DNA of 36,167 bases from the IMG/VR virus record IMGVR_UViG_3300025168_013319, positions 1 to 36,167 of that record. The stretch is one strand, 5' to 3'. This stretch comes from a virus. Each line of letters opens with the position of its first letter. Within the stretch, counting starts at the first letter, position 1. The notes beneath the pieces are model-generated. The model did no database searches. It was not told the origin of the DNA and saw only the letters and a list, made by a program, of their open reading frames with translations. Below, one piece after another: positions 2,860 through 27,502 of the stretch. A program made the position numbers and the translations under genes.

Positions 2860-3692
2860 TTTTGATTGACAATAACCAAGTGGTCTTGTCTAGTATCTTT
2901 GCACAAACTCGTGGCAATAAGGATCTAGATGAAGATCAAGTACGTCACATCACTTTAAACATCTACCGCAGTATTCGCAATAAGTTTTACTCCGAGTACG
3001 GTGAACTTATCATCTGTCAGGACTCGTCTAACTGTTGGCGAAAAGATATCTTTCCGCAATACAAGGCAGGAAGAAAGAAGAACCAACAGAAAGATGCTGC
3101 CGACTGGAATAAGATCTTTGATGTTCTAGGTACAATCCGACGAGAGATTCGGGAAACATTCCCATACAAAAACATTTCAATTCCACGATGTGAGGCAGAT
3201 GATATCATTGCCGTCCTTGCAAAGAAGTACAGTCCATCTGAAAAGGTTGTGATTGTATCTTCGGACAAAGACTTCAAACAGTTACAACGATTTGATAATG
3301 TCAAGCAGTATTGCCTTAGAAAGAAAGACTTTCTGGTAGAGGAAGATCCAGAACGATTCTTGTTTGATCACATCATGTATGGTGATTCCTCTGACGGAAT
3401 CCCCAATGTGTTGTCGGCAGACACTGTATTCGTTGATGGTATTCGTCAGCGTCCAATCTCTAAGAAAAAGTTGGAAAAATTGTATAGACAAGAGGAAGAT
3501 CTTGGTGTAGAATTTGAGAGGAACTGGGACAGAAACTCTCAACTCGTAGATCTAGACAGGATCCCGGAAAAGTATGTCACGGAAATTCTTGAGGCGTTTG
3601 AAGAATCTCCTATTGGTGCAAGAAGCAATATATTTAACTATTTTGTCAGCAATAAACTGCGTATGCTGATGGAAAACATTCAGGATTTCTGA
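2856..3692 (+). CDS. rnh: Ribonuclease H / 5'-3' flap exonuclease (T4 Rnh family)
   Basis: T4 Rnh-type enzymes remove RNA primers and flaps from lagging-strand fragments. The 278-residue protein shows the acidic metal-binding set of the FEN/5'-nuclease family: D5 in MILIDNN, D56 with the following WRKDIFPQYKAGR (61-73), CEADD (112-116), SSDKD (136-140) and GDSSDGIPNV (176-185), a helix-hairpin-helix-type signature. Length is close to T4 Rnh (305). The start overlaps the previous stop by four bases. It sits upstream of the clamp and clamp-loader genes, consistent with Okazaki fragment maturation. The family assignment is secure; whether RNA/DNA or flap cleavage dominates is not visible. Confidence 0.92.
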   Translation: MILIDNNQVVLSSIFAQTRGNKDLDEDQVRHITLNIYRSIRNKFYSEYGELIICQDSSNCWRKDIFPQYKAGRKKNQQKDAADWNKIFDVLGTIRREIRETFPYKNISIPRCEADDIIAVLAKKYSPSEKVVIVSSDKDFKQLQRFDNVKQYCLRKKDFLVEEDPERFLFDHIMYGDSSDGIPNVLSADTVFVDGIRQRPISKKKLEKLYRQEEDLGVEFERNWDRNSQLVDLDRIPEKYVTEILEAFEESPIGARSNIFNYFVSNKLRMLMENIQDF

Positions 3693-4585: not shown

Positions 4586-5526
4586 TGGACAATAAAGATT
4601 TCTTGTGGGTCGAAAAGTATCGCCCCCAGACAATCAAGGATTGTATTTTGCCAGAGAATGTCAAGGAGACATTCGAAGACATGGTTCGTGTAGGAGAAGC
4701 ACAGAACCTGTTGCTGTCGGGTGGCGCCGGTTGTGGAAAGACTAGTATTGCAAGGGCCCTTTGTAATGAACTTGGTGCTGAGTACATTCTGATCAACTGC
4801 TCAGAAGATGGAAACATCGATACTCTCCGTACCAAGATTCGAAACTTTGCAAGTACAATCTCATTGAGTAATGCGAAGAAGGTTGTTATTCTAGACGAAT
4901 TCGACTATTCTAATGCACAGTCTACACAACCGGCGCTACGCGGTTTTATTGAAGAGTTCTCAAAGAACTGTCGGTTCATCCTGACTTGTAACTTCAAGAA
5001 TCGAATCATCCAACCGCTGCACTCCAGATGCACGAACGTGGACTTCAAGATTGTCAAGTCGGACCGACCCAAGTTGGCAATGCAGTTGATGGAGAGTGTC
5101 AAGAAAATTCTTGATGCTGAAGGTGTGGTGTATGAGGAGAAGGTTCTTGCTGAACTTATCTCCAAGTATTTCCCTGACTTCCGCCGCATCATTAATGAGT
5201 TGCAGAGGTACTCTGTTTCTGGTACAATCGATGTCGGTATCCTTGCAAACATTGGTGATGTCCAGATCAAGGACATGATCTCCTTCATGAAGAAGAAGGA
5301 GTTCACCAATGTACGCAAGTGGGTGATCGACAGTATCGACAACGATCCTGCCGTGATCTTCCGGAAGATTTACGATGGACTGTACGAGCATTTTGCACCG
5401 CAAAGTATTCCTCAAGCAGTCATGGTACTCGCAGACTACCAGTACAAGTCTGCCTTCGTTGCGGATCAGGAGATCAACCTGACTGCATGTCTAACAGAAC
5501 TGATGCTGGAGTGTGAATTTAAATGA
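4585..5526 (+). CDS. 44: Clamp loader large (ATPase) subunit gp44
   Basis: This is an AAA+ ATPase that, with gp62, opens and loads the gp45 ring. Visible features are WVEKYRPQ at residues 8-15 (the RFC/gp44 opening motif), Walker A GGAGCGKT (46-53), Walker B VVILDEFD (100-107), a sensor-1 region FILTCNFKNR (131-140) and the SRC box (147-149) with the trans arginine finger. The 313 residues match T4 gp44 (319). It shares one base with gene 45 and runs into the GroES-like start by an ATGA overlap at 5523-5526. The assignment is secure. Confidence 0.97.
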   Translation: MDNKDFLWVEKYRPQTIKDCILPENVKETFEDMVRVGEAQNLLLSGGAGCGKTSIARALCNELGAEYILINCSEDGNIDTLRTKIRNFASTISLSNAKKVVILDEFDYSNAQSTQPALRGFIEEFSKNCRFILTCNFKNRIIQPLHSRCTNVDFKIVKSDRPKLAMQLMESVKKILDAEGVVYEEKVLAELISKYFPDFRRIINELQRYSVSGTIDVGILANIGDVQIKDMISFMKKKEFTNVRKWVIDSIDNDPAVIFRKIYDGLYEHFAPQSIPQAVMVLADYQYKSAFVADQEINLTACLTELMLECEFK

Positions 5527-5825
5527 GTGATAAGTTTTATCCCGTGAGAGGGAAAGTTGTTCTTAAGAGAAATGTGAAGTCGGGAGTCTCTGATGCAGGA
5601 GTTGTATACACACCAAAGGAGCATCCAAAGTATCTACTTGGTATGGTTTCTTCGATCGGTGTGCCTGCTGTTTTGCCTAATGGGAAAGAACTGGAACCTG
5701 AATACAAGGTGGGTGATTATGTAATGTATGATTACTCACGGGGTATGGAAGGATTTGGTGGATTTGATTTGGTAATGCAGGATCAGGTTATTGCTGTTGT
5801 CGATAAGGACACTGAAATTTCATGA
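5523..5825 (+). CDS. groES: GroES/Cpn10-like co-chaperonin (T4 gp31 analogue)
   Basis: Cpn10 proteins cap GroEL; T4 gp31 replaces GroES so that the capsid protein can fold. This 100-residue protein starts with the family's YPVRGKVVLKR strand (compare PLxDRVLVKR), then a mobile-loop-like segment SGVSDAGVVYTPKEH (about 20-34), then LLGMVSSIGVPAVLPNGK, KVGDYVMYD and a final VIAVVDK strand, all in Cpn10 order. Placement between 44 and 62, two subunits of one complex, is unusual: in T4 gene 31 is elsewhere. It overlaps both neighbours by four bases. It is more GroES-like in length than gp31 (111). It probably works with host GroEL during head assembly. Confidence 0.85.
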   Translation: MSDKFYPVRGKVVLKRNVKSGVSDAGVVYTPKEHPKYLLGMVSSIGVPAVLPNGKELEPEYKVGDYVMYDYSRGMEGFGGFDLVMQDQVIAVVDKDTEIS

Positions 5826-6205
5826 CTAAACTTGGTGACTACCTAAATGCGGTAAACCACACAAAGGTGCCTCTTCTCGATACGGATGATGATTCCATCG
5901 AGAAGGGGTACGTCCCTTTCGTTGTGAATCGCTGCCTGTCGTACTTCCCAGACACAATCTTTTATGTGAATGAGATGAACATCAGACCAGATACATCGAA
6001 GAAGATGCAGTTCGATTTCTATCTCAACTCTCTGAGGAAGAGAAAGCGATTCAGTAAGTGGTTGAAGAGAGAGAATCCAGACGATCTACAAGCAGTCATG
6101 GATTACTTTGAGTATTCCGAAGCAAAGGCCCGCGAAGCACTGAACGTGTTATCAAAGGAAACTGTGTCTGAAATTGTGGATATGATGTCCAAAAGGGACG
6201 GTTAG
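5822..6205 (+). CDS. 62: Clamp loader small subunit gp62
   Basis: gp62 joins four gp44 subunits to make the clamp loader. The protein is 127 residues, shorter than T4 gp62 (187) but like the compact forms I know from marine T4-like phages. It has the typical pattern KLGDYLNAVNHTK, then YVPFVVNRCLSYFPDTIFYVNEMN (two pieces, residues about 30-53), and KRFSKWLKREN (about 77-87), followed by EYSEAKAREAL. It begins inside the GroES-like stop (ATGA) and is the expected gene between 44 and regA. The identification relies on these motifs and gene order. Confidence 0.88.
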   Translation: MTKLGDYLNAVNHTKVPLLDTDDDSIEKGYVPFVVNRCLSYFPDTIFYVNEMNIRPDTSKKMQFDFYLNSLRKRKRFSKWLKRENPDDLQAVMDYFEYSEAKAREALNVLSKETVSEIVDMMSKRDG

Positions 6206-6245
6206 ACCCCATAAAACATACATAAGAAGGATAGAGTGCCTTTTT

Positions 6246-6668
6246 ATGGAGTTTATACAAATGGGACAACCGAATATTGAAATTAGTGATTTACTCGAAA
6301 TCACATTATACGAACCCGATGATTTTTTGAAAATAAAAGAGACGCTCACACGAATTGGTGTATCGTCCAGAAAAGAAAAAAAGTTGTATCAGTCCTGTCA
6401 TATCTTACACAAACGAGGTAAGTATTACATTGTCCACTTCAAAGAACTCTTTGCACTGGACGGTCTACCAACTGATATAGCAGAAAACGATATAGGAAGA
6501 CGAAATACGATTGCTAAATTGCTAGAGGAATGGGAACTATTAGAGATAGTCCAGACTTCTCAGGCAGAAGAACCAGTGGTTCCGATTAGTCAAATAAAGA
6601 TTCTTCCATATAAAGAAAAGGGTGATTGGGAACTTTGTCCCAAGTACCATATAGGTCGAACTAAATAG
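6246..6668 (+). CDS. regA: RegA translational repressor
   Basis: RegA binds start regions of early mRNAs, including its own and clamp genes in T4, and blocks their translation. The 140-residue protein matches T4 RegA (122) closely over EITLYEPDDFLKIKETLTR, LYQSCHILHKRGKYYIVHFK, a middle LLEEWELLEIV and the ending WELCPKYHIGR. The extra length is in the first ~12 residues and a short insert. ATG 6246 is chosen although the best purine stretch (AGAAGGA, 6225-6231) is far upstream; ATG 6261 has none. The 40-base gap before it is the largest in the window and could carry its own regulation. It is the last replication gene before the glycan island. Confidence 0.95.
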   Translation: MEFIQMGQPNIEISDLLEITLYEPDDFLKIKETLTRIGVSSRKEKKLYQSCHILHKRGKYYIVHFKELFALDGLPTDIAENDIGRRNTIAKLLEEWELLEIVQTSQAEEPVVPISQIKILPYKEKGDWELCPKYHIGRTK

Positions 6669-6686
6669 AATAAAAGGATTTATATT

Positions 6687-7400
6687 ATGCGACTTTTGAT
6701 CAAGTTTCCTACTCGTTCCCGCCCTGACAAATTCAAACAAGTTTTAGAAATGTACATCGATTACCTATCTGGTAAGCACGATGTGCGTTTCGTTATTACA
6801 TGTGACGAAGACGACAAGACAATGAACAACCCCAAAGTTCGTAAATGGTTTGGTTCCCTACAAGAAAGTGGCGTAAACTTAACTGCATACTACGGCGATT
6901 CCTCAACTAAAATTGAAGCATGTAATGCAAACATGGAAGACGAAACTTTCGATGTGGGACTTCTGGCATCAGATGATATGATCCCCCAATTGAAAGGGTA
7001 TGATGATATCATCCACCAGATCTTTGAAAAGACTTGGCCAGAGTTTGATGGAGCAGTTAAGTTTAATGATGGTCTTCGTCCGGATGCTCTGTGTACTCTA
7101 CCAGTAATGGGAAAGAAACTATACGATGCAATCGGACACTGGTATCACCCAGACTATACTAGCATTTATTGTGACACCGAGATGACAGAACTCTGTATGA
7201 TGCTTGGTAAATTTGCTGTATGCGAAACATGTATCATCAAGCATGAGTGGGTTCCCGGTGGTCACGAAGAATCTGATGAACTACACACGATGCAGGAAAG
7301 TCCTGAGATGTACGAGAAGGACGGCGGCGTCTTCAACAAAAGAAAGAACGAACTTCAGTTTGATGTTCAGGAAGTAGCGAAGAGACTTAATCATGCCTAA
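6687..7400 (+). CDS. Glycosyltransferase-like protein (GT-A fold)
   Basis: First gene of the glycan island, 18 bases after regA with AAAGGA upstream. The 237-residue protein opens with RLLIKFPTRSRPDKF and VRFVITCDEDD, has KIEACNANM (about 75-83) and a DXD-like ASDDMIP (about 93-99), the layout of small GT-A family 2-related transferases that bind a nucleotide sugar through a metal at the acidic motif. Donor and acceptor are unknown. It overlaps the next glycosyltransferase by eight bases, so the two are probably coupled. Confidence 0.7.
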   Translation: MRLLIKFPTRSRPDKFKQVLEMYIDYLSGKHDVRFVITCDEDDKTMNNPKVRKWFGSLQESGVNLTAYYGDSSTKIEACNANMEDETFDVGLLASDDMIPQLKGYDDIIHQIFEKTWPEFDGAVKFNDGLRPDALCTLPVMGKKLYDAIGHWYHPDYTSIYCDTEMTELCMMLGKFAVCETCIIKHEWVPGGHEESDELHTMQESPEMYEKDGGVFNKRKNELQFDVQEVAKRLNHA

Positions 7401-8025
7401 GAATAAAGACGATATAAAATTTAGTGTGTTGATGCTTTCGATCCCATCGAGACTCGACAAGTACAGGGTTCTACAGGATAAACTACTCGGCCAGATTGGT
7501 GATCGAGAAGATGTAGAAGTCATTTGTGTTATTGATAACAAGTCCCTACACATCTGGGAGAAGAGAAATGAACTTCTTCGGATGGCAAGAGGAACACACA
7601 TTGCATGGTTGGATGACGACGACGATGTGGCGGACAACTACATTGAACGGTTGACGGAAACTATAGAGGAAAATCCCAACGCTGATGTCATTTCATTTAA
7701 TCAAGACTGCTATCTCAACGGTGTTCATGCTAGGGTGTTCTTGAAAATGGGCAATCCACACGAACCAGTAAGACCCGCAGCAGATGGTTACTCGCAGGGA
7801 TTTCAAGATACACTTCGTCCCCCATATCATTTCAACGTGTGGAAGAGAACACTCGCACAATCAGAACTATTCCAGAGCATGTATCATCCACAAACTGGTC
7901 AGTCGTGTGAAGACATTGATTGGTTGCAGAGATTATATCCGAAGGTGGAGGAGAGCGTTGCTCTCGATGATTTCCTCCACGTTTACCAGTGGTCCTCAGA
8001 GGAAACGGAGTCTATCGTAACGTGA
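7393..8025 (+). CDS. Family 2 glycosyltransferase
   Basis: A 210-residue GT2-type protein. It starts with a beta strand typical of the family (FSVLMLSIPSRLDKY), continues to VEVICVIDNKSL and a helix KRNELLRMARGTHIAWLDDD (about 55-74), in which the acidic stretch WLDDDDDV is the metal/nucleotide-sugar motif. The C-terminal half carries a WKRTLAQSE segment and an acidic CEDIDWLQRL helix, as in GT2 enzymes with an ED-type base. It overlaps both neighbours. Product sugar is unknown. Confidence 0.82.
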   Translation: MPKNKDDIKFSVLMLSIPSRLDKYRVLQDKLLGQIGDREDVEVICVIDNKSLHIWEKRNELLRMARGTHIAWLDDDDDVADNYIERLTETIEENPNADVISFNQDCYLNGVHARVFLKMGNPHEPVRPAADGYSQGFQDTLRPPYHFNVWKRTLAQSELFQSMYHPQTGQSCEDIDWLQRLYPKVEESVALDDFLHVYQWSSEETESIVT

Positions 8026-8702
8026 AATTGATTACTTATTCATTATGGGGCGACAATCCAGTATACACGATTGGCGCGATTAAAAATGCAAAACAAGCAA
8101 TGGAGATGCTACCCGAATGGACATGTAGATTCTACATTGCCGATACTGTAGACTCTGCCATCGTTCGAAGTCTTGAGTTATTCCCGAACGTACAAACTGA
8201 AATGAGAACAGAGGAACCCGGATCGCTAGGTATGTTCTGGCGATTCGAACCAGCAGAAGACAGCAGTGTGTCACACATGATTTCGCGTGACACAGATTGT
8301 CGTTTCTGTGCGAGAGAAGTTTCCGCCATCAACGAGTGGGTTGACTCTGGTGAACAGTTTCATATCATGCGAGATCACCCGTACCACGGCGTTCCAATGC
8401 TCGGCGGAATGTGGGGTTGCCGAGGCGGAGCAGTTCCAAACATCGTTCGAATGATGGAAGACTTCAATGCGACAGATGAGAAGAGTCAGGATCAGTGGTT
8501 CCTTTGGAAACACATTCATCCTCTGTCTCTGAAAAATTGTATGGTACACGATCCGTTCTTTGCAGATACGGACTTCCCTATCACAGAGCGACCAAGTGAC
8601 GGTGTTGATTTCGTTGGACAATGTTTTGACGAGAATGATAAACCGGGAGGCAACTGGAAACACGATTTAGAAGTATTGGAGGAAGCACTATGCCAAAAGT
8701 GA
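8022..8702 (+). CDS. Putative glycosyltransferase, uncharacterised family
   Basis: This 226-residue protein begins VKLITYSLWGDNPVYTIGAI, an opening I associate with a family of small uncharacterised transferase-like proteins. It has a possible DXD motif (SRDTDCR, about 90-96) and a well-formed MRDHPYHGVPMLGGMWG block (about 115-131). I take GTG 8022 as the start because it makes a GTGA overlap with the previous stop; an in-frame ATG at 7989 would extend back into the preceding gene. The end overlaps the next gene by 13 bases. The glycosyltransferase role rests on the acidic motif and neighbours and is only probable. Confidence 0.6.
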   Translation: MKLITYSLWGDNPVYTIGAIKNAKQAMEMLPEWTCRFYIADTVDSAIVRSLELFPNVQTEMRTEEPGSLGMFWRFEPAEDSSVSHMISRDTDCRFCAREVSAINEWVDSGEQFHIMRDHPYHGVPMLGGMWGCRGGAVPNIVRMMEDFNATDEKSQDQWFLWKHIHPLSLKNCMVHDPFFADTDFPITERPSDGVDFVGQCFDENDKPGGNWKHDLEVLEEALCQK

Positions 8703-9427
8703 TCATGTCGTGTGACGACAATCCATACTACCTAGACTTCTGGCCGTTGGTGTCATGGGTCTGGAAAGAGAAAATGGGAATCGAACCTGTCCTTGTTCAT
8801 GTCGGGGAGAAAGAACCGTCCACCGAACATGGACAGGTTCATTCCATGCCCGTAGACGAAACAGTTCCTATTCATACTCAGGCACAACTCTCTCGAATGT
8901 GGTACACACATAAAGAACCAAATACAACATGGATAACAAGTGACATTGATATGTTTCCTATGTCTCGTAAGTATTGGCAGTCCGTTGTCTTAGAATTTTC
9001 CCAACGTACATGGACAAACCTAAACAGCAACGCTGACTACTTTCCTATCTGCTACAACATGGCGAGAGGTGAAGTCTTTGCTGATGTTTTGGAGATCGAG
9101 TCTTCGTTCGCAGATTATTGCCATAAGGTTTCTGATTCGGTTGATGAAAACTTCGAACATAAACCAAACAACTGGCCGGAAGACGTAACATTATCAAAGT
9201 GGAATATTGATGAGGTTCATTCGTCACGAAAGATCTGTGAGTTTAGGGACTCTGGTGGAGATGTTTGTCAACCAATTCCCATGATGACATTGAACCGAAG
9301 AATTGACAGAACTAACTGGACATACGACAAAAGTATGGTACAATCGGGGGAGTATATTGATTGTCACTCTGTCCGTCCCTATAGCGTATACAGCATGGCA
9401 ATAAAGGATCTGTTGGGGTTACTATGA
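8690..9427 (+). CDS. Putative glycosyltransferase with DXD motif
   Basis: The protein is 245 residues. MPKVIMSCDDNPYYLDFWPL leads into a Rossmann-like half, and TTWITSDIDMFPMS (about 80-93) contains a DXD motif set like those of GT8-type and related GT-A enzymes. The remainder is unrecognised (SDSVDENFEHKPNNWPEDV, MMTLNRRIDRTNW). It lies in an overlapping run of transferase genes, with a four-base overlap at each side or close to it, which supports a carbohydrate role. Family and donor remain unassigned. Confidence 0.55.
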   Translation: MPKVIMSCDDNPYYLDFWPLVSWVWKEKMGIEPVLVHVGEKEPSTEHGQVHSMPVDETVPIHTQAQLSRMWYTHKEPNTTWITSDIDMFPMSRKYWQSVVLEFSQRTWTNLNSNADYFPICYNMARGEVFADVLEIESSFADYCHKVSDSVDENFEHKPNNWPEDVTLSKWNIDEVHSSRKICEFRDSGGDVCQPIPMMTLNRRIDRTNWTYDKSMVQSGEYIDCHSVRPYSVYSMAIKDLLGLL

Positions 9428-10104
9428 ATCATACCGAAATACCATTCTACATTTGTCATTGTAAGAAACTAACAGAACGAAAAGAACCACTTGAAAAAGA
9501 ATTGGATCGTGTTGGCATCAAAAATGCGACATGGATTCTGGATTTCGATGGTGACGAGTTACCTGATGGATACGAGGAAACTATTCTGAATACCTCTTTG
9601 TGGGGCGAAAGAATGCAGATGTCGATGTATCCCTCACCTCCTCGGTTCCGGGTATTGAGTAGACCTATTTCATCTTTAGTTATGAAGCATCGGGAATCAT
9701 ACCGAAAGTTCGTAGAAACTGATTCCGATTACGCACTTGTATCAGAAGACGATACAATCTTCAATGAAAATTTCGGGGATGAGTTCTCTGAGTTTATGGG
9801 AAGTATGCCACCGCAAGTTGACATCGTTCATATGTGTGCAGCGTCAGGCCTGTTTCCTAATGGCATCACCACTGATCAACATTTTTATGAACATCCATTG
9901 ACTAGGGGTACTGGATTATATCTGATATCAAAACGTGCTGCTACTATTATGTCCGAAGGACTTGATAGGTTCTGTGGTCCAATTGATTTTGAGATCAATT
10001 ATTTTGTTGAGAAGTATAATCTAAAATCCTTTTGGTTACACCCCCTGTTGGCAATTCAAGGATCCGAAACCGTTTATGGATCTTCTCTGTCTGGGGTACG
10101 ATGA
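9424..10104 (+). CDS. Family 25 glycosyltransferase-like protein
   Basis: GT25 enzymes include beta-1,4-galactosyltransferases of lipooligosaccharide. The 226-residue protein has the family layout: an opening IPFYICHCKKLTERKEPLEK in which the helix with ERK is the usual start, a central YALVSEDDTIF (about 102-112) with the GT25 EDD motif, and a later GTGLYLISKRAA (about 160-171), the GTxxYxIS box. It sits four bases into the previous gene and hands over to the GT29-like gene by ATGA at 10101. Family assignment is good; the sugar is unknown. Confidence 0.8.
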   Translation: MNHTEIPFYICHCKKLTERKEPLEKELDRVGIKNATWILDFDGDELPDGYEETILNTSLWGERMQMSMYPSPPRFRVLSRPISSLVMKHRESYRKFVETDSDYALVSEDDTIFNENFGDEFSEFMGSMPPQVDIVHMCAASGLFPNGITTDQHFYEHPLTRGTGLYLISKRAATIMSEGLDRFCGPIDFEINYFVEKYNLKSFWLHPLLAIQGSETVYGSSLSGVR

Positions 10105-10787
10105 ATTACACAGAGTTCCTAAAAAATAAAACAGTGGCGTTGGTTGTGTCTGGTTCATCATTGAAGGATTCTGGGCGTGGTGAGGAGATCGACTCTTATG
10201 ATATTGTGATCCGATTGAACCGAGCGTTACCAATAAAAAATCAAAAAGATGTTGGACAAAGGACAGATGTATTGTATAATACACTTGATGGTTATCCTGA
10301 CGCCGGAGGACCAATCGACGGAGAGTTGTGGAAAAGATGTGGAGTTCAGATGGTTTGTTCAACGTACCCTAAATCAGAATACTTCACACACCCACAGAGA
10401 TCTGAAAACTTGGATTCTATTTTACCCACTCGTTGGATGTCGGATGAAACATACTACCCAATCAAAGAAAAGGTTAAGTTCAGACCCAATTCAGGAACCA
10501 CCACATTGGTAGACTTGCTTTCTTTTGATATGAAAAGCATCCATCTATTTGGGTTGGATTTCTTCCGCACGTTGTATGATACTGGTTATCTGTCCGATGG
10601 TGGAAGCGTGAAGGAGTTTGAATCACATTTGGCAATGAATCAGAATGATCGACACGATCCTGACTCGCAGTATTTGTTTTTCAAAAACGATATCTATCCA
10701 AATGATGATCGTATTATCGTGGATAAATATTTCCAAGACATCTTGAGTGATTCTAGTTATGATAAAATGTTTTTTGTAGAGGATTGA
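10101..10787 (+). CDS. GT29 / sialyltransferase-like glycosyltransferase
   Basis: GT29 enzymes move sialic acid from CMP-sialic acid. The 228-residue protein carries a recognisable L sialylmotif, VALVVSGSSLKDS (12-24), then EEIDSYDIVIRLNRA, then DVGQRTDVLY. It also has an S-type motif with RPNSGTTTLVDLL and IHLFGLDFF, and a late RHDPDSQYLFF histidine/acidic box. The paired cysteines of animal enzymes in the L and S motifs are absent. ATG 10101 makes an ATGA overlap with the GT25-like stop. The next gene encodes a CMP-sugar synthetase, the expected donor maker. That the donor is CMP-sialic acid itself is not proven; a CMP-linked relative is equally possible. Confidence 0.78.
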   Translation: MNYTEFLKNKTVALVVSGSSLKDSGRGEEIDSYDIVIRLNRALPIKNQKDVGQRTDVLYNTLDGYPDAGGPIDGELWKRCGVQMVCSTYPKSEYFTHPQRSENLDSILPTRWMSDETYYPIKEKVKFRPNSGTTTLVDLLSFDMKSIHLFGLDFFRTLYDTGYLSDGGSVKEFESHLAMNQNDRHDPDSQYLFFKNDIYPNDDRIIVDKYFQDILSDSSYDKMFFVED

Positions 10788-10789
10788 TA

Positions 10790-11929
10790 ATGAAATCTGT
10801 TGCAATGATTCCTGCCCGACTCGGCAGTAAAAGAGTCCACAATAAAAATCTTAGACTAATTGGTGGTAAACCATTAGTGTCTTATATCATTGAGTCTGTG
10901 ATAAAGTCCGGTGCGTTTGCACTTGAGGATATCTACATCAACTCTGAGTCGGATGTGTTCAAATCAATTGCAGATGACTATGGTATTAAGTTTTATAAAA
11001 GACCTGATAGTTTATCTACAGATAGTGCAACGAACGATGACTTCGTTTTAGACTTTATTAACACAGTTGATTGTGGTATGATTTTTCAATTCCTGCCGAC
11101 TTCACCTTTTATTCTTGGATCAACCATCCGAGAGTTTTATGATTGCATGATCGATAGCAACACCGAAACATTAATTTCTACTACAGACGTTCGGATCGAG
11201 TGTCTCTATGATGGACAACCATTGAACTTCAAGCAGAAGGAAAAGACACCACCTTCACAATCCCTGACTCCAGTCAAGGCATACGCTTGTGGTATGATGG
11301 CATGGGAAACACGCAGATATAAAACGAACATGGAGAGATACAACTCTGGATATCATGGTGGGGATGGAAAGACTGGATTCTTCCCAGTGTCTGGGTTTGC
11401 ATCAGTTGATATTGATACAGTTGATGACTTTCTTTTGGCGGAGAGAATCGTAGAATCTATGGATAACGATCAAAAGATGGAAGTTCAATACTACGATCCA
11501 GAATTGCACTCGGGCGTTCGCTCAGAAGTTCATGTTCCTACTATTCTAAAGACTGACGGTGTAGAGGCCTCGAATTTCGAACAAGAGAATCAGACTATCA
11601 CGAACCTCGATGACCTTTTAAAAAAAAACATGAATGATTCGTGGATGCATCGTGTTATAAATTCAGAGAGCAATAGTTGTTGTGTAATTCATCAAAGACC
11701 CGGCGAGGGTAATCGCCGTCACTATCATCCATCATGGAATGAGTGGTGGTATATACTAAAGGGAGAATGGGACTTCGAGATTGAAGGAACCGTTCATAGA
11801 GTTAAGAAGGGTGATCTGGTTTTCATTCCAAAGAACCGATGGCATTGTATCAAATGTGTTGGTGATCAACCCGCAGCAAGATTAGCAGTCAGCAGAGAAG
11901 ACGTATCGCATGTCTATAAAAACGACTAA
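10790..11929 (+). CDS. CMP-sugar synthetase (NeuA-like) fused to a C-terminal cupin
   Basis: The N-terminal ~225 residues are a cytidylyltransferase of the acylneuraminate group: MIPARLGSKRVHNKN (6-20) is the CTP-binding loop, GGKPLVSYIIESV follows, and FLPTSPF (101-107) matches the QPTSPLR box of CMP-NeuAc/pseudaminate synthetases. The C-terminal part (about 285-375) is a cupin with histidines in RRHYHPSWNEWW (about 309-320) and GDLVFIPKNRWHCI. This fusion is uncommon. The cupin might bind the product or catalyse an epimerisation. ATG 10790 has GAGG eight bases upstream; a TTG at 10784 is less likely. It stands between the GT29-like transferase and an aminotransferase. No NeuB-type synthase occurs in the window. 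Confidence 0.85.
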   Translation: MKSVAMIPARLGSKRVHNKNLRLIGGKPLVSYIIESVIKSGAFALEDIYINSESDVFKSIADDYGIKFYKRPDSLSTDSATNDDFVLDFINTVDCGMIFQFLPTSPFILGSTIREFYDCMIDSNTETLISTTDVRIECLYDGQPLNFKQKEKTPPSQSLTPVKAYACGMMAWETRRYKTNMERYNSGYHGGDGKTGFFPVSGFASVDIDTVDDFLLAERIVESMDNDQKMEVQYYDPELHSGVRSEVHVPTILKTDGVEASNFEQENQTITNLDDLLKKNMNDSWMHRVINSESNSCCVIHQRPGEGNRRHYHPSWNEWWYILKGEWDFEIEGTVHRVKKGDLVFIPKNRWHCIKCVGDQPAARLAVSREDVSHVYKND

Positions 11930-11930
11930 T

Positions 11931-13052
11931 ATGAGTTTCTGGGATATGCGGATTGACTTTGATAAAAGTCATGGAAGTTATCTCTTCGACAAGAATACTA
12001 ACAGAGAGTACCTAGACTTCTTTGGTATGTACTCGTCTCTACCTCTCGGATACAATCACAAAGTATTTGATGAGGAGTTCCATCGTGAAATGAGAAGTAT
12101 CTCTACCGTCAAGGTCGCCAACTGTGAATTTCATACGGACGTATATGATAGGTTCTGTGATAAGTTAAATCAGTTTGCTGGTCTTGGCAAGTACGAAAAC
12201 TATCACTTTACTTGCACCGGATCATTGGCCGTCGAATGTGCTTGCAAACTTGCAATGGATTATAGTGGTAAGGATACCATAGTTTCCCTTGCGAATAGTT
12301 TTCATGGTATTCATTCTTATGGTAATTTCGCCACTAGTAAATTCTATCCAGTGAAAGATCGTCTTCATGGATTCCCCAATCTTCACTGGCCGAAAGTTCA
12401 TAATGTATTTGAATTGGACTTTCAAATAACCAAAGGTAATGTTGCCGGTATTTTAGTTGAACCAATTCAAGCGACATTTGGGGACAATCATTTTAGCATG
12501 GGATATCTCAAGTCTATCTCTAAGATGGCAAAGGACAATGACATTCCATTGATCTTCGATGAGATTCAAACAGGGTTTGGTACAACAGGCAAACCTTGGT
12601 ACTTCGAGCATCTTGATATCGAACCGGATATTGTTGTGTTTGGCAAAAAAAGTCAGGTGTCTGGTATCATGAGTACCCCAAAGATCCCGTTCACAAACGG
12701 CAGTCGTTTGTGTGTTACCTTTGATGGTGATATAGTAGACATGTTGAGATCAACTTATATAATGAAGGCATACGAAGAATATGACTTGCTAAATAATGCC
12801 ATACAGCAGGGGAAAAAATTAGTCAACGATCTTTCCTCTGTGGATGGTTTGCTGAATGTGAGAGGCATCGGATTGATGATTGCTTTTGACATGGAAAGCA
12901 AAACCATCCGCGATAATTTTGTTGACAAACTCAAGAATAATGGTATGATATGTAATCCTACCGGAGAAAAGTCGGTTAGACTGCGACCAAACCTAGCAGT
13001 AACTGATGATGACATACAACAATGCATTTACACAATAAGGAGCAGTACATGA
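11931..13052 (+). CDS. Class III aminotransferase, lysine-6-aminotransferase-like
   Basis: A PLP enzyme of fold type I, 373 residues. DEIQTGFGTTGKPW (about 209-222) holds the aspartate that bonds the PLP nitrogen. FGKKSQVSG (237-245) gives the Schiff-base lysine (K239 or K240) and closely resembles the FGKKTQVCG box of L-lysine epsilon-aminotransferases. The C-terminal LRPNLAVTDDDI is also standard. In this cluster the substrate is more likely a keto-sugar or keto-cyclitol than lysine, but that is inference. ATG 11931 starts two bases after the previous stop; ATG 11910 is possible and would add seven residues. The stop overlaps the SIS gene by four bases. Confidence 0.85.
   Translation: MSFWDMRIDFDKSHGSYLFDKNTNREYLDFFGMYSSLPLGYNHKVFDEEFHREMRSISTVKVANCEFHTDVYDRFCDKLNQFAGLGKYENYHFTCTGSLAVECACKLAMDYSGKDTIVSLANSFHGIHSYGNFATSKFYPVKDRLHGFPNLHWPKVHNVFELDFQITKGNVAGILVEPIQATFGDNHFSMGYLKSISKMAKDNDIPLIFDEIQTGFGTTGKPWYFEHLDIEPDIVVFGKKSQVSGIMSTPKIPFTNGSRLCVTFDGDIVDMLRSTYIMKAYEEYDLLNNAIQQGKKLVNDLSSVDGLLNVRGIGLMIAFDMESKTIRDNFVDKLKNNGMICNPTGEKSVRLRPNLAVTDDDIQQCIYTIRSST
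12922..12949 (+). promoter_or_regulatory. Candidate sigma70-type promoter with extended -10
   Basis: TTGACA at 12922-12927, a 16-base spacer, TGG then TATGAT at 12944-12949. It matches 11 of 12 consensus bases and has the TGn extension. It lies in the end of the aminotransferase gene about 100 bases before the SIS gene and could give a separate transcript for the SIS-SDR-cyclase part. It may still be chance in coding DNA. Confidence 0.4.
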
Positions 13053-13615
13053 ACAGTGCGCCATTTGGAAATCTAGAAGAACAGTTGAGAGAAAAAGTAG
13101 AAACTCCTGAGTGGGAGAGAATGATTGAAGGTATCAACAATGCTGATACCATTTACGTCATCGGTAACGGTGGAAACATGGCGGTTGCTAGTCATGCAGC
13201 AGCAGACATTACTCGTCTAACTAAAAAGAGAGTGTGGTCTTTAGATAGTCAGTCTCTTCTGACCTCCATCGCCAACGATTTCGGTTATGAAAACATCTTC
13301 AAGGATTGGTTAGATCTTTATGCCAATCCCAATGAACGAAGTATGGTTATTGGATTTTCTGGTTCTGGTAATTCTAAGAATGTTGTTTCTGCTCTTAATT
13401 GGGCAAACGAAAATCACAATTGGGCATGTACTTTGATCTCCGGATCTGGTTCTAACTGTCTAGATTCTAAGATCCCAGAGATCAATTTCGATAATGATTA
13501 TTTTCATCAACATGAGATTCTTTCTGTCATGTGTTTCTACGAGATTGTATACAACCTCGGACACAAGTGTCCCACGATCAAGGCAGAATTGGTTCGTAAG
13601 TACGGAACTACCTGA
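13049..13615 (+). CDS. SIS-domain sugar-phosphate isomerase (GmhA-like)
   Basis: SIS domains bind phosphosugars; GmhA converts sedoheptulose 7-phosphate to a heptose 7-phosphate. The 188-residue size fits GmhA (about 190). The phosphate-binding parts are IYVIGNGGNMAVASHAAAD (35-53) and IGFSGSGNSKNVVSAL (101-116), and the C-terminal half has an EILSVMCFYEIVYNLGH helix similar to the family's last segment. ATG 13049 overlaps the preceding stop (ATGA) and has AGGAG upstream. The substrate is uncertain: a heptose, a hexosamine phosphate or another keto-sugar. It precedes the SDR with one shared base. Confidence 0.82.
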   Translation: MNSAPFGNLEEQLREKVETPEWERMIEGINNADTIYVIGNGGNMAVASHAAADITRLTKKRVWSLDSQSLLTSIANDFGYENIFKDWLDLYANPNERSMVIGFSGSGNSKNVVSALNWANENHNWACTLISGSGSNCLDSKIPEINFDNDYFHQHEILSVMCFYEIVYNLGHKCPTIKAELVRKYGTT

Positions 13616-14322
13616 TGGACTTGTTTGGTAAAACTGCATTAGTAACCGGAGCATCTAGGGGAATCGGTAAAGCGATTCAAACTACCCTTTCTGCTGCCGG
13701 TGCAGTTGTTTATACCACAAGCAAATCTCATCAAGATCATGATACGCACATGCAGGTTGACTTTACAAACTCATCTTCGCGTGAAAACTTTTATTCTAAG
13801 ATAAAAGATTTGAAGTTTGACATCTGTGTAAACAATGCTGGTGTCAATAAAATTAAATCATTTGATGGATTCACTCCAGAAGAATATGATCACATTATGG
13901 ATGTTAATATTAAATCACCATTCAGGATAAATCAAATAGTTGGTAAAAGCATGAGTGATAATGGCGGTGGTAAAATTATTAACATCGCCTCTATCTACGG
14001 TGTTGTATCTAAACCACAAAGACTTCTATACACGATGTCAAAATCATCTCTAATTGGAATGACTAAAACTCTAGCGGTAGAATTAGCACACAAGAATGTG
14101 TTAGTTAACTGTGTATCACCGGGATTCACTTTGACAGATTTGACAAGAGAAGTTTTGGGTGACAGTGGTATCGAACAGACACAAAATAAAATACCTATGG
14201 GTAGACTTGCCAATCCGAAAGAGATTGCGAACACAGTTTTGTTTTTGTGTAGTGATCTAAACACTTATATCACTGGACAAAATATAATAATAGACGGGGG
14301 GTATGTCAGTGGTGAAAAATGA
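13615..14322 (+). CDS. Short-chain dehydrogenase/reductase
   Basis: A classical SDR of 235 residues using NAD(P)H: TGASRGIGKAI (11-21) is the cofactor loop, NNAG sits at 73-76, and the catalytic residues are S126 (IASIYG), Y139 and K143 (YTMSK). VSPGFTLTDLT and the closing ITGQNIIIDGGY are FabG-like. In this cluster it probably oxidises or reduces a hydroxyl of a sugar or cyclitol intermediate, before or after the aminotransferase. It is not likely to serve fatty acid synthesis in this setting. It shares one base with the SIS gene and overlaps the cyclase-like gene by 20 bases. Confidence 0.87.
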   Translation: MDLFGKTALVTGASRGIGKAIQTTLSAAGAVVYTTSKSHQDHDTHMQVDFTNSSSRENFYSKIKDLKFDICVNNAGVNKIKSFDGFTPEEYDHIMDVNIKSPFRINQIVGKSMSDNGGGKIINIASIYGVVSKPQRLLYTMSKSSLIGMTKTLAVELAHKNVLVNCVSPGFTLTDLTREVLGDSGIEQTQNKIPMGRLANPKEIANTVLFLCSDLNTYITGQNIIIDGGYVSGEK

Positions 14323-15358
14323 ATTGGTGATCTCATCATCCTCACGAAAATATACCGTAGAGTTTTGTTCTTATCTCGATGTATTACGACAGTACGATAC
14401 AGACGATGTTGTTTTTATTGTTGACGATTATCTTGATGTCTCTGATCTGAAAAACCACAAAGTAATTTCATTGACGGCATCAGAATATCAAAAGTCATTC
14501 GATGGAGTTGGTGAACTCATCTCTAAGTTAACCGAACTCGATATAACACGCAACACTAAGTTGGTTGCGTTTGGTGGTGGAGTTATTCAAGATGTAACTT
14601 CATTCACCGCATCAATAATGTTTAGGGGCATAGAATGGGATTTCATACCAACCACACTATTGGCACAGGGTGACAGTTGTATTGGATCGAAAACATCCAT
14701 CAATTTTTCCAAGTATAAAAATAGACTGGGTAATTTTTATCCACCATCAGCAGTTTATATTGATGTTAGTTTGCTCGACACTCTCCCTCGTTTACAACTC
14801 ATGTCTGGGTTGGGTGAACTTTTACATTACATAATGATCGACGGCGAGGAAAGTTTACGACTATTCCGAGATCACTTCCACGGGGGCGAAGTTTCCCTAT
14901 CAGATCTTATCCGTAGGTGCTTGTTCATTAAAAAAACAATCATAGAAAATGATGAATTCGATAGGGGTGAGAGAATAATACTCAACTACGGACATTCATT
15001 TGGCCATGCCATTGAGGGTGCTATGAAAAATAAAATACCACACGGAATAGCAGTTGCATATGGTATGGACTGTGCAAATTTTATATCATGTAAAATGGGC
15101 ATGATGAATAGATCAGACTACAATCGATACAACGAAGTGTTGTCTGCAATCTACAAGGAGTATCCGATCGAGAATATGGAAACGGGAGACATGATTCAGT
15201 GTTTGGGTAAGGATAAGAAAAACACCAGAGATTCATATCGAGTTATTCTTTCCCACACCGCCGGTGACATGTTTGTACAGGACATAAATAAGGACAGTAC
15301 ATTAAATATTATGATTGATGAGTGGAGACTAAATTATGAAGCAATTGCTGGTATCTGA
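14303..15358 (+). CDS. Dehydroquinate-synthase-like sugar-phosphate cyclase
   Basis: This superfamily (DHQS, EEV synthase, DOI synthase) turns a keto-sugar phosphate into a carbocycle using NAD and a metal. The 351-residue protein has GGGVIQDV (91-98), PTTLLAQGDS (116-125), K130, KN (139-140), E172, the metal histidines in NYGHSFGH (228-235) and H247. Aligned to DHQS, K210, R224 and N228 keep the triad that holds the substrate carboxylate, but the usual lysine of AEVIK is histidine (H175) and one glutamate is aspartate (D220). So the substrate may be an acid like DAHP, or differ. The start is ambiguous: ATG 14303 or GTG 14309, both near a G-run at 14296-14301. It overlaps its neighbours on both sides. 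Confidence 0.83.
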   Translation: MSVVKNELVISSSSRKYTVEFCSYLDVLRQYDTDDVVFIVDDYLDVSDLKNHKVISLTASEYQKSFDGVGELISKLTELDITRNTKLVAFGGGVIQDVTSFTASIMFRGIEWDFIPTTLLAQGDSCIGSKTSINFSKYKNRLGNFYPPSAVYIDVSLLDTLPRLQLMSGLGELLHYIMIDGEESLRLFRDHFHGGEVSLSDLIRRCLFIKKTIIENDEFDRGERIILNYGHSFGHAIEGAMKNKIPHGIAVAYGMDCANFISCKMGMMNRSDYNRYNEVLSAIYKEYPIENMETGDMIQCLGKDKKNTRDSYRVILSHTAGDMFVQDINKDSTLNIMIDEWRLNYEAIAGI

Positions 15359-15968
15359 TAGCAAAAATTTTGTGTATCACTTCATACCAAGGGCGGGAGC
15401 AAGTTCCCTAAAGTACCATCTTCAGAAATATGTAGAAGGTATGATCCCAGTACACAGAGACAACGTAGAGGTTCATGATTCTCCGTTGCATAAGGAGATC
15501 CGCAAGGTTGCAAGACCAGTTGCTGATCTACCGAATTACCCAAACCATTTTAAGTTTGTGGTAGTTCGTAACCCATACGATAGAATAATTTCTTATTACT
15601 ACGAGTATATTGCAGAGGACTTTGATAAATTCCTAGAGTATATCGATGTTCTTCGTCATGACTGGCAACCAAAAAAGCACGATCATGTTATTCCTATCCG
15701 GTACATGATGAACAAAACAACATACTATGATCGAATCTATAGACTAGAAGACAATGCATTTGAAATGATTCAGACTGAATTAAATCTTGATCCTTTTGAT
15801 GATGTCCGATTTAGTGTGTCTTCTAGACTAGGTGAGCAAAACCCTCTAACAGAAACACAGATGAAAAATCTCTGTGATCTAGTAGAGGAAGTTTATAATA
15901 TTGATTTACAAACTTTTAATTACACAAGAGAAGATTCAAATTACTTGAGGAGAATGCATTATGTTTGA
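15336..15968 (+). CDS. Sulfotransferase
   Basis: A PAPS-dependent sulfotransferase fold protein of 210 residues. FIPRAGASSL (16-25) corresponds to the 5'-phosphosulfate loop and VVVRNPYDRIISYYYEY (75-91) to the 3'-phosphate motif (RxPxxRxxSxY). The C-terminal half with YRLEDNAFEMI matches Sulfotransfer_2-type carbohydrate enzymes in layout. It probably adds sulfate to a sugar made or transferred by its neighbours; sulfate donor must come from the host. ATG 15336 has GGAG upstream and overlaps the cyclase-like gene by 23 bases; its own end overlaps the next gene by eight. Confidence 0.82.
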   Translation: MKQLLVSDSKNFVYHFIPRAGASSLKYHLQKYVEGMIPVHRDNVEVHDSPLHKEIRKVARPVADLPNYPNHFKFVVVRNPYDRIISYYYEYIAEDFDKFLEYIDVLRHDWQPKKHDHVIPIRYMMNKTTYYDRIYRLEDNAFEMIQTELNLDPFDDVRFSVSSRLGEQNPLTETQMKNLCDLVEEVYNIDLQTFNYTREDSNYLRRMHYV

Positions 15969-16353
15969 TTGGACAAAACCAACAGTCCAGATGCTTGGTA
16001 GATGGCAACCGTGGCACGATGGACACAGTGCCTTGTTTGAGAAAGCACTTGAAAAAACCGGCCAGGTATGTATTATGTGTCGAGAAGTCGGTGGAGTTGA
16101 TGCTGGTGTAGAAGGACAGGCAGACAATCCATTTGAGTTTGATGAGGTTGCTGCACGAATCATAGAGGTGTTGGCAGAAAAAGGTTATGAGTATGGAGTT
16201 GAGTACATGATCCTTCGGATCCCTAATGTTATTGATATATCATACGGCAGAACTGTCGGTTACACCTTTACTGAACATGATCTTGGTGAGGAAGTTCATG
16301 GTATTTCCGCGACTAAGGTTAGAGCAGAAATGCGATCACGCGGAGAACTTTGA
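15961..16353 (+). CDS. Small nucleotidyltransferase, TagD/cytidylyltransferase type
   Basis: The 130-residue protein carries GRWQPWHDGH (13-22), the HxGH nucleotide-binding motif, and the closing HGISATKVRAEM, equivalent to the ISSTxIR motif of glycerol-3-phosphate cytidylyltransferases and related adenylyltransferases. It would join CTP or ATP to a phosphorylated small substrate. The sulfotransferase next door makes a link with sulfate activation tempting, because ATP sulfurylase shares the nucleotidyltransferase fold, but size and motifs favour the cytidylyl/adenylyl group. GAGGAG lies eight bases before the ATG. The stop directly abuts the next start. Confidence 0.78.
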   Translation: MFDWTKPTVQMLGRWQPWHDGHSALFEKALEKTGQVCIMCREVGGVDAGVEGQADNPFEFDEVAARIIEVLAEKGYEYGVEYMILRIPNVIDISYGRTVGYTFTEHDLGEEVHGISATKVRAEMRSRGEL

Positions 16354-17256
16354 ATGCCCATTGCCCATTGCACCGGACCATGGTCTGGTTTGTATTTAGA
16401 TCTACCCTTCAAGTGTCATGTAGACACTAGACTCGTATCTAATTTCACCAGAGAATCAGACACAAAGTATGTTTACATTGACAGTGAACCGCCGTGGTCA
16501 TGTTCATCGATCGATGAGATTAAATCTGCTGCGGAGCGATATGATTTAATTATGACAACATATAACGAGGACATCATCGAACAGATCCCCGGTTCAATCA
16601 TGTATCATGTTCACCATGATCCTTACATAGACCCTGCATATAAACCAGAGTTTGATGAGAAAAAGTTTTATGTCAGTTACCTTGTTTCTAATTGGAAAGA
16701 AACAAAGCACGGTTTCTGGATTCGTAAACCAGCAGCAGAAATTCTGTCTAATCACAGTGTTCCGCACAAGGTATGGTCTGGTCGTCGAACTCCATACCCC
16801 GGCGCCGAACTGTTACCACAAACATACCCACCCACCGTGTTGGATGATTATAATAAATCAATTATGTTTGATGCTATGTTTTCTATCGCGGTGGAGAATC
16901 ATATCCAAAGAAATCACTGGCAAGAAAAAATCCTTGGGTGCTTCTGGACACGAACCGTTCCTATCTACTTCGGTGCGCCGAACCTATCTGAGTTTGGATT
17001 CAGAGAGGATGGGATCTTTCAGTTTGATACTGAAGAAGAGTTGTCTGACATTCTAGATAGTCTTAGTCCTGAGTTGTATGAAGAAATGAAGGAAGCAATC
17101 GAACATAACTTTCAACTCGTCATGAGTGACTACAATATTTCGCAGCATGTTGATATCGCAAACGGGATCACCAAATATTTTCTTGGTGATGTGCCAGAGG
17201 CAAATCGATTTGTCAGTGTAGAAGAATTTAATAAAGGATGGCCATGGAAGAAGTAA
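16354..17256 (+). CDS. Family 10 (fucosyltransferase-like) glycosyltransferase
   Basis: GT10 enzymes transfer fucose from GDP-fucose. The 300-residue protein has the diagnostic C-terminal donor region: MFDAMFSIAVENH (about 172-184), then WQEKILGCFWTRTVPIYFGA (about 189-208) and PNLSEF, matching the EKxxxxxxxGTVPVxxGAP pattern. A GDP-mannose 4,6-dehydratase at 21056 could start GDP-fucose synthesis, but the GDP-fucose synthase (Fcl) is not in the window. The donor might therefore be host-made or another GDP-deoxysugar. It starts right after the previous stop with GGAG upstream. Confidence 0.8.
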   Translation: MPIAHCTGPWSGLYLDLPFKCHVDTRLVSNFTRESDTKYVYIDSEPPWSCSSIDEIKSAAERYDLIMTTYNEDIIEQIPGSIMYHVHHDPYIDPAYKPEFDEKKFYVSYLVSNWKETKHGFWIRKPAAEILSNHSVPHKVWSGRRTPYPGAELLPQTYPPTVLDDYNKSIMFDAMFSIAVENHIQRNHWQEKILGCFWTRTVPIYFGAPNLSEFGFREDGIFQFDTEEELSDILDSLSPELYEEMKEAIEHNFQLVMSDYNISQHVDIANGITKYFLGDVPEANRFVSVEEFNKGWPWKK

Positions 17257-17957
17257 TAGATAATCCAATTATAGTAGACAAAGACTTTGACTACACTGGT
17301 TCGGGGAAGTTGCTTCGTGCCAAGAATCCAAACGAACCAATCTTCAGTGTCGTGGGACATTCTCTGAAAGTTTCTATAACTGCGGTGACTGTTGACAACG
17401 ATCAAACACTAGTAGAGTACAGTGATATTGGTTCTGGTGTATTGTGGATTTTGGGATGTCAAGCAAAAAAATTAGTTACTGGTTTTGCTCCTGAGTCTAG
17501 TATTGTTGTGGTTGGATCTCAAGTTTCGTGTGATTTTCTTGACGATGTAACGGCACTTAACAAACTAACAAGGGCAAATTTAGGCAACACCCGCGAGTAC
17601 AATGATGCCGTCGTCAATCCTATCCTGCATAACGAACCAACACCCGGAGAAGTTTTGACATTTCAACTAAAAAAGAATTTGACAAACGGTATTGGATGTG
17701 TTATAGTTAAGAATGAAAACATAACATATGTTGGAGGATTTGCTGGTGATCCAATCACGTTAGATTTAAACAACAATCCCACTGTATGGGAATGTTGCTC
17801 CCTAAATAATAGTAACAATTTACCCAGTAAATCAATTTTTATTAATTCATATCTTTCATCGTATTATGATGAAGATAACTTCGTTCATATTAATCCCCGT
17901 TCAACATTTGACTTGAAAGAACCTATCAAGTTCGCTGATAGAAAGAAAGGATCATAA
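17244..17957 (+). CDS. Hypothetical protein, beta-strand-rich
   Basis: This 237-residue protein matches no family I recognise. It looks like alternating short beta strands (VSITAVTVDND, SSIVVVGSQVSC, ITYVGGFAGDPITL), with no transmembrane segment, no DXD motif and no cofactor loop. Position between a GT10-like transferase and a CitE-like protein suggests a part in the same glycan pathway or a modified structural protein. ATG 17244 is preferred to ATG 17238 because AAAGGA at about 17232-17237 then has normal spacing. It overlaps the GT10-like gene by 13 bases and shares one base with the next gene. Confidence 0.6.
   Translation: MEEVIDNPIIVDKDFDYTGSGKLLRAKNPNEPIFSVVGHSLKVSITAVTVDNDQTLVEYSDIGSGVLWILGCQAKKLVTGFAPESSIVVVGSQVSCDFLDDVTALNKLTRANLGNTREYNDAVVNPILHNEPTPGEVLTFQLKKNLTNGIGCVIVKNENITYVGGFAGDPITLDLNNNPTVWECCSLNNSNNLPSKSIFINSYLSSYYDEDNFVHINPRSTFDLKEPIKFADRKKGS
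17679..17707 (+). promoter_or_regulatory. Candidate sigma70-type promoter with extended -10
   Basis: TTGACA at 17679-17684, 17-base spacer ending TGT, then TATAGT at 17702-17707: 11 of 12 consensus bases plus TGn. It is inside the hypothetical gene, about 250 bases before the aldolase-like gene, and could start a transcript for the second half of the island. Confidence 0.4.
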
Positions 17958-20056: not shown

Positions 20057-20058
20057 AA

Positions 20059-27492: not shown

Positions 27493-27502
27493 GAGATATA
27501 AA

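Follow-up and report, generated by a model that had tools for sequence, protein, structure and literature searches.

A GT29-like glycosyltransferase gene paired with a cupin-fused CMP-sugar synthetase gene in the sugar island of a T4-like virus

A stretch of viral DNA of 36,167 bases (IMG/VR virus record IMGVR_UViG_3300025168_013319; hereafter the window, meaning the whole stretch analysed), a linear fragment of a marine T4-like phage in which T4-type replication genes are present, was found to encode a predicted glycosyltransferase of the GT29 (sialyltransferase) type, directly followed by a cytidine monophosphate (CMP)-sugar synthetase. We consider it likely that this phage-borne protein is a soluble GT29 enzyme of bacterial type that transfers a CMP-activated, non-standard sugar supplied by its own gene cassette, probably onto a glycan of the host surface. 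The two genes are as follows:

10101 to 10787, + strand: GT29-like (sialyltransferase-fold) glycosyltransferase of 228 amino acids (aa), assigned by PF00777, AF2 and VIA-align.
10784 to 11929, + strand: CMP-sugar synthetase (NeuA/PseF-like CTP_transf_3) with a C-terminal cupin (PF02348, 4.3e-19; Cupin_2, 8.9e-17).

The GT29-like open reading frame (ORF) starts with an ATG at 10101, overlapping the stop codon (10102-10104) of a GT25-like gene, and ends with a TGA at 10785-10787. A first-pass annotation of this DNA had quoted L- and S-type sialylmotifs, proposed a GT29-like fold and suggested a GT29 profile search and a comparison with ST3Gal structures as checks. Both motifs are present in this ORF, and profile, model and structural comparison agreed on the family and on the sialyltransferase fold, a GT-A variant. 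The lack of a significant GT29 match, which that annotation had named as refuting, did not occur. PF00777 (GT29) matched the L-motif region (residues 11-66) of the protein significantly (E 5.5e-11, 42.8 bits, cut-off 23) and was matched at E < 0.01 by 20 of 21 relatives, whereas PF06002 (GT42) gave no match to the window protein at E up to 1 and was matched by one of the 21; PF01973 (Maf/MptE-like) did not match the window protein. When these 21 phage and spirochaete/bacterial relatives were aligned into a profile and compared to the PDB, the matches at E < 0.001 were CMP-sialyltransferases only (ST3Gal1 1e-17, ST6Gal1 6e-17, CstII 1e-16, ST8SiaIII 1e-12 and CstI 9e-12), and the CstII alignment spanned nearly the whole domain. 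An AF2 model built from the same alignment reached a pLDDT of 83.9 and a pTM of 0.84 (a model from the single sequence, with pLDDT 32, was discarded). VIA-align ranked ST3Gal1 (2wnf) first for this model, with Z 13.0 over 175 residues and a root-mean-square deviation of 3.1, followed by ST6Gal1, ST8SiaIII, ST6GalNAc2, CstI (Z 11.8) and CstII (Z 11.3). A homologue scan with the window protein alone returned nothing, whereas a degenerate L-motif DNA pattern did yield matches; alignment A1 proved too heterogeneous to be used in such scans. The closest relatives of the protein are viral, with up to 71-73% identity. As dN/dS was incalculable owing to saturated synonymous sites, differences per codon position were taken instead: relative to a 71%-identical homologue, positions 1, 2 and 3 differed at 27, 13 and 60%, similar to the clamp loader gene. 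Judged in this way, the GT29-like and synthetase genes are under purifying selection, which together with their pairing (see below) argues for a function of both.

Within sialylmotif L, residues G27, I30, D31, D34, R38, N40 and G52 are conserved in the alignments of relatives, and the segment RPNSGTTTLVDLL...IHLFGLDFF aligns with sialylmotif S, with G132 and G151 conserved. Motif VS reads H185-x4-Q190, and its histidine is kept in 15 of 15 and 20 of 21 relatives in two alignments; Asn40 is at or near invariance in these alignments of 15 and 21 relatives. In human ST3Gal1, H316 of motif VS (H-x4-E) is the catalytic base and H299 of motif III the acid, while the residues in contact with the CMP phosphate are N147 and N170 (PMC6884586). 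By alignment, His185 corresponds to H316 and Asn40 to N170. The terminal residue of motif VS is Gln instead of Glu in the window protein, and the human E321Q enzyme is among the variants that retain 25-80% activity (PMC6884586). Only two cysteines are present, Cys80 and Cys86, both outside the motifs, and the disulphide pair of motifs L and S seen in opisthokonts is missing. Because bacterial GT29 proteins are reported generally to do without these cysteines (PMC5811610), their absence is not decisive for GT29 membership. The first-pass annotation had taken it as a sign that the gene is no recent animal copy; that conclusion stands, capture of an animal gene being ruled out also by the viral nearest relatives and by an identity to the animal enzymes of 16-18% in structural alignment, but the sign is equally normal in bacterial GT29 and thus denotes the bacterial type.

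The neighbouring gene had likewise been recognised as a CMP-sugar synthetase, with no mention of its fused cupin. Translation probably starts at the ATG at 10790 (379 aa), two bases past the GT29 stop. The nucleoside triphosphate-binding motifs RxGSKxxxxKN and DxD are kept (RLGSKRVHNKN and DIDTVDDF), and the PDB matches are PpNeuA, mouse CMAS and NmNeuA. The cupin is a separate domain occupying the C-terminal third of the ORF and, on direct reading, retains the HxH...E...H signature characteristic of cupins that bind metal. TIGR03584 (PseF) was the best equivalog match, but at 72 bits it fell far under the cut-off of 205.7, and therefore no known CMP-sugar can be named; the KdsB equivalog gave 22.8 bits (cut-off 155.2). 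The NeuA-cupin fusion occurs in 13 further viral contigs, at 50-95% identity.

The association between both genes was evaluated in two sets of loci (given below by L numbers): set (a), found via the GT29 sequence, and set (b), comprising 60 non-redundant viral loci for which GDP-mannose dehydratase (GMD) was the sole selection criterion. A GT29-like gene was present in 13 of the 60 loci of set (b), and a CMP-sugar synthetase in all 13 of those versus 6 of the 47 without GT29 (Fisher p = 5e-9, a value that overstates independence, as the 13 loci represent about four GT29 clades in a tree); among full-length loci only, the figures were 11/11 versus 4/29. In this set, the window's GT10-like gene, another transferase, showed no link to the synthetase (p 0.24), and the SIS gene was linked (p 6e-6). 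The GT29-like and synthetase genes were 1-3 genes apart in all 13 loci, a closeness that none of 20,000 random placements equalled. In set (a), GT29 has a synthetase nearby, often with no gene in between, in L018-L023, L058, L060, L061, L014 and the spirochaete L015. Adjacent or overlapping copies of the two genes were seen in the window, L037, L035, L058, L060, L096, L095, L021, L061, L014 and L015. Both sets together show the pairing in about eight or more divergent clades, many of its carriers being uncultured phages, and one scan of a genome collection yielded three distant GT29-like loci. The adjacency of donor maker and donor user that the first-pass annotation had remarked upon is thus conserved and specific, and not due to chance, and it supports transfer from a CMP-sugar. 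That it accompanies every GT29-like gene of an independently selected set speaks for functional glycan pathways in these islands as opposed to packaging filler, an issue previously unsettled for the lipopolysaccharide (LPS) clusters of cyanophages. That the sugar genes are neighbours without a common function, or filler for headful packaging, would agree with the 'stuffer DNA' that Sullivan et al. 2010 (PMC3037559) raised for the LPS clusters of large cyanophages; with the specific repeated pairing, the tight gene overlaps and codon-position differences resembling those of the clamp loader gene, we regard this as very improbable here.

Besides the clade structure of the 13 loci, several observations weigh against a GT29 enzyme served by its own cassette. 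The first CMP-phosphate asparagine (N147 of ST3Gal1) is replaced by Ser17, as in ST6Gal1, and motif III, HY(Y/W/F)(E/D), with its catalytic-acid histidine (H299), was not found, the region 157-167 being modelled at pLDDT < 50. A near-invariant Tyr163 lies in this poorly modelled motif-III loop, and CstII uses tyrosines at the equivalent place; motif III is seen in some phage relatives, e.g. as HYWE in L003. In the synthetase, the R-R-Q of mouse CMAS and the Q of IQATSP, which we take to be sugar-site residues, are replaced by P-S-Q and L. Neither NeuB nor KdsA was found in the 36-kb window, an incomplete genome fragment, and the GT29-like phage genes of L062-L073 have no synthetase within the sequence covered. 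Finally, the fold is shared in VIA-align by the MptE-type HPPK of M. jannaschii (Z 10.2) and by Maf (Z 7.9), and MptE-like genes occur near NeuA-cupin in L028, L029 and L030, as might be expected if the protein were Maf/MptE-like (PF01973) or had this fold without being a glycosyltransferase. Since it exceeds the PF00777 cut-off without matching PF01973 and has GT29 enzymes as its nearest structures, that identity is hardly credible.

The relatives also showed variations in architecture. In L018-L023, L095, L101 and L104-L111, the GT29-like domain is fused to a stretch of about 300 aa that matches no Pfam family, in proteins of 518-661 aa. The huge uncultured phage L003 (LR756508.1) carries four distinct GT29-like ORFs within 5 kb:

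2531-3160, 5262-5942, 5926-6603 and 6603-7349 of L003: GT29-like ORFs, several with motif III (HYWE) and motif VS (HxxxxE), as in animal/bacterial sialyltransferases.

Four further genes of the window complete the cassette:

11910 to 13052, + strand: class-III aminotransferase, cassette core (PF00202, 6.1e-62).
13022 to 13615, + strand: SIS-domain sugar-phosphate isomerase (GmhA-like), cassette core (PF13580, 2.7e-6; TIGR00441 gmhA, 6.4e-15, under cut-off).
13615 to 14322, + strand: short-chain dehydrogenase (SDR), optional member (PF13561, 2.3e-50).
14303 to 15358, + strand: AroB-like sugar-phosphate cyclase, optional member (TIGR04425, 6e-109, 364 bits, cut-off 400).

The aminotransferase gene adjoins nearly all, and the SIS isomerase gene most, of the NeuA-cupin homologues with enough flanking DNA; nearly all of these carry both. 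About half of the NeuA-cupin contigs have SDR and AroB-like genes, which recur in the window, L026, L028, L030, L031, L035, L036 and L058; they were not found in the cassettes of L027, L029, L037 and L096, and AroB was not found anywhere across the 123-kb L037 contig. As these cassettes have the same core, both genes are dispensable for the core product. TIGR04425 is a family of putative cyclising sugar-phosphate phospholyases, and the 364 bits of the window protein exceed the best score (284) in 60 bacterial genomes of one phylum; the matches in these genomes were all sub-cut-off, like ordinary AroB, so that this search revealed no cellular origin for the cassette. Should the AroB-like enzyme cyclise a sugar phosphate, with SDR and aminotransferase finishing the product and the GT29-like enzyme attaching it, the donor would be a CMP-linked aminocyclitol, a carbocyclic sugar mimic. 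The TIGR04425 score and the recurrence of SDR and AroB in eight loci including the window are in line with this, but the core-sharing cassettes without them and the retained RxxLNxGH segment of true dehydroquinate (DHQ) synthases, which suggests an AroB-type substrate, make it rather improbable.

Some NeuA-cupin cassettes are devoid of GT29. MptE-like (PF01973) genes are located close upstream of the cassette in L028 (8545-9342), L029 (1732-2388) and L030 (9234-10007), where GT29 is absent, and PF01973 is a domain also found in the Maf CMP-sugar transferases acting on flagellin; as candidates for a substitute transferase, these genes received no support from hhalign against the GT29 profile. 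In L031, no GT29, GT42 or MptE-like gene was detectable among the genes scanned.

From the computed fold, family, retained base, synthetase pairing, modular cassette and codon-level selection, we infer the activity, donor, acceptor and benefit as follows. The SIS isomerase and class-III aminotransferase, here also the SDR and the AroB-like cyclase, would build the sugar, to which the NeuA-cupin cytidylyltransferase would couple cytidine triphosphate (CTP). The GT29-like enzyme would then catalyse a single-displacement inverting transfer from the CMP donor, in which His185 of motif VS would act as catalytic base and Asn40 would hold the phosphate of CMP. The sugar is probably amino-modified and ulosonic-acid-like, other than N-acetylneuraminic acid (Neu5Ac), and the acceptor is probably a surface glycan of the infected cell, which the 17-kb sugar island would alter during infection.

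A sialic acid as the donor, on the other hand, was not supported, given the missing NeuB and KdsA in the window, the altered CMAS sugar-site residues and the missing motif-III histidine. The plant GT29 protein RCKT1 has been reported as a transferase of CMP-activated 3-deoxy-D-manno-octulosonic acid (Kdo) (PMC11288761), so that a GT29 protein need not use sialic acid. Two close T4-like relatives, L061 and the contig from which L078 comes, have GT29, NeuA and a divergent NeuB (TIGR03569, 150 bits, cut-off 399.65) in the slot that the sugar genes occupy in the window; in L061, NeuB is beside the GT29-synthetase pair. NeuB is also on the L014 contig. In L033, the aminotransferase, NeuA-cupin and SIS genes are accompanied by KdsA (DAHP_synth_1, 2.7e-50) and another cytidylyltransferase gene, and a GT29-like gene lies downstream. 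Because NeuB or KdsA accompany GT29 and NeuA in these relatives, the family overall seems tied to CMP-activated sugars of the ulosonic type. Most NeuA-cupin contigs have neither gene, and no NeuB was found in this group, not even on the 123-kb L037 and 107-kb L035 contigs, except for the KdsA-type protein of L033, a weak NeuB match. These data bear on two further donors. A true nonulosonic-acid (NulO) transferase, using CMP-activated Neu5Ac, legionaminic acid (Leg) or pseudaminic acid (Pse) with a NeuB-type synthase elsewhere in the genome or encoded by the host, would agree with the GT29 and GT42 folds being those of CMP-sialic acid transferases, with L061 and the L078 contig, and with PseF as the best equivalog of the synthetase. 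We consider it unlikely, because the synthetase falls so far under the PseF cut-off and lacks two CMAS sugar-site features, NeuB is missing from the NeuA-cupin group bar the L033 match, and a standard NulO pathway is not made up of aminotransferase, SIS and AroB-like genes. Transfer of Kdo or an 8-amino-Kdo-like sugar would instead divert host Kdo, altered by the aminotransferase, activated by NeuA-cupin and added by the GT29-like enzyme; the L033 cassette, the weak KdsB-type matches of the synthetase and the plant precedent all fit. Nevertheless, the synthetase resembles KdsB less than PseF, the window has no KdsA, the L033 GT29-like protein has Arg at the position of the VS histidine, and marine Synechococcus LPS is not known to contain Kdo. 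Kdo transfer is, in our judgement, doubtful.

The genes described above belong to a larger island:

6687 to 24167, + strand: sugar/glycan gene island of about 17 kb, between T4-type regA and dUTPase/DNA polymerase (PHROG).
9424 to 10104, + strand: GT25-like glycosyltransferase, directly upstream of the GT29-like gene (PF01755, 1.3e-5).

The T4-type replication genes of the window are those for the sliding clamp, UvsX and helicase and, with PHROG matches, for RegA, the clamp loader, dUTPase and DNA polymerase, the last of which shares about 54% identity with its counterparts in Synechococcus T4-like phages. The island, a run of sugar genes on the + strand, is bordered by the end of RegA (6668) and the start of dUTPase (24164), and this slot also carries variable sugar genes in L026, L036, L037, L061 and L078. 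In L037, a copy of the GT25-like gene, 60% identical, occupies the equivalent position by synteny.

The first-pass annotation had described GT29 as best known from animals; the family is indeed known mainly from animals and other eukaryotes, but it is not animal-only, a few bacterial members having been reported. The window protein resembles the bacterial GT29 proteins of Petit et al. 2018 (PMC5811610) in its GT29 profile, its motifs L, S and VS, and the absence of motif-L/S disulphide cysteines and of an apparent membrane anchor, but those proteins are said to keep motif III, whereas the phage protein is without the motif-III histidine and its gene is phage-borne and adjoins a cupin-fused synthetase. 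With animal ST3Gal1 and ST6Gal1 it shares the fold over residues 1-211 (Z 12-13), the catalytic-base histidine and the second CMP asparagine, and with ST6Gal1 the serine at the first; it differs in its low identity, the lack of disulphides and motif-III histidine, and the VS glutamine. CstI and CstII (GT42) of Campylobacter jejuni have the same fold (Z 11-12), and the relatives' profile aligns near full length to CstII, but the window protein matches PF00777 and not PF06002. The plant GT29 proteins RCKT1/MGP2 (PMC11288761) are also proposed to use a CMP-ulosonate (Kdo) and not sialic acid, but as Golgi enzymes acting on pectic rhamnogalacturonan II (RG-II). Large sugar islands are likewise found in the marine T4-like cyanophages P-SSM2, S-SSM7 and S-SM2, whose LPS clusters are of unknown function (PMC3037559).

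One tailed-phage protein with a GT29-like fold had already been deposited, A0A6J5NLG3 ('Glycosyl transferase family 29 [uncultured Caudovirales phage]', BFVD), which aligns over 149 columns only, at 19% identity. In 50,697 phage records, cyanophage LPS clusters included, no good relative of either window protein was found; the best matches were, for GT29, about 25% identity in two huge uncultured phages and, for NeuA-cupin, an ordinary CMP-sialic acid synthetase at 23%. No paper on a phage GT29 paired with CMP-sugar genes was found in the open-access literature. Bacterial GT29 and one phage entry named GT29 are thus already on record, and a conserved donor-maker/transferase module in T4-like phages appears to be undescribed.

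As to its role, the GT29 island would most likely serve to change the host surface glycan during infection, e.g. blocking superinfection or aiding release, and decoration of the virion is a possible alternative use. A broader proposal, which we put forward tentatively and with less confidence than the enzyme assignment, is that of an exchangeable, self-contained module of marine T4-like phages, with a new CMP-sugar (not Neu5Ac, Leg, Pse or Kdo) and a divergent GT29 clade without the motif-III acid, remodelling the infected cell surface. The pair would provide two enzymes acting in sequence and possibly a new CMP-sugar, and CMP-glycosyltransferases without disulphides may be easy to express in bacteria.

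Other genes of the window were also recorded. Within the island, 15336-15968 encodes a sulfotransferase-family protein (PF03567, 1.8e-10), and 17957-18481 a short protein, 78-99% conserved in L027, L037 and L096, with a weak, under-cut-off match to HpcH/HpaI aldolase (8.4e-4); it could be a pyruvate aldolase acting as the source of a 2-keto acid. A GroES-like co-chaperonin gene (5523-5825; Cpn10, 8.6e-8) lies within the clamp-loader gene run, and a glutamine synthetase-like gene (27443-28591; PF00120, 2.6e-20), with a homologue at a different place in L036, adjoins the DNA polymerase gene. Further downstream, 32649-33593 encodes a membrane protein of weak phosphate-transporter likeness (PHO4, 6.5e-5, under cut-off), and 34798-36165 a protein with collagen-like GATGPTG repeats that runs past the window end and is possibly a virion fibre or surface protein.

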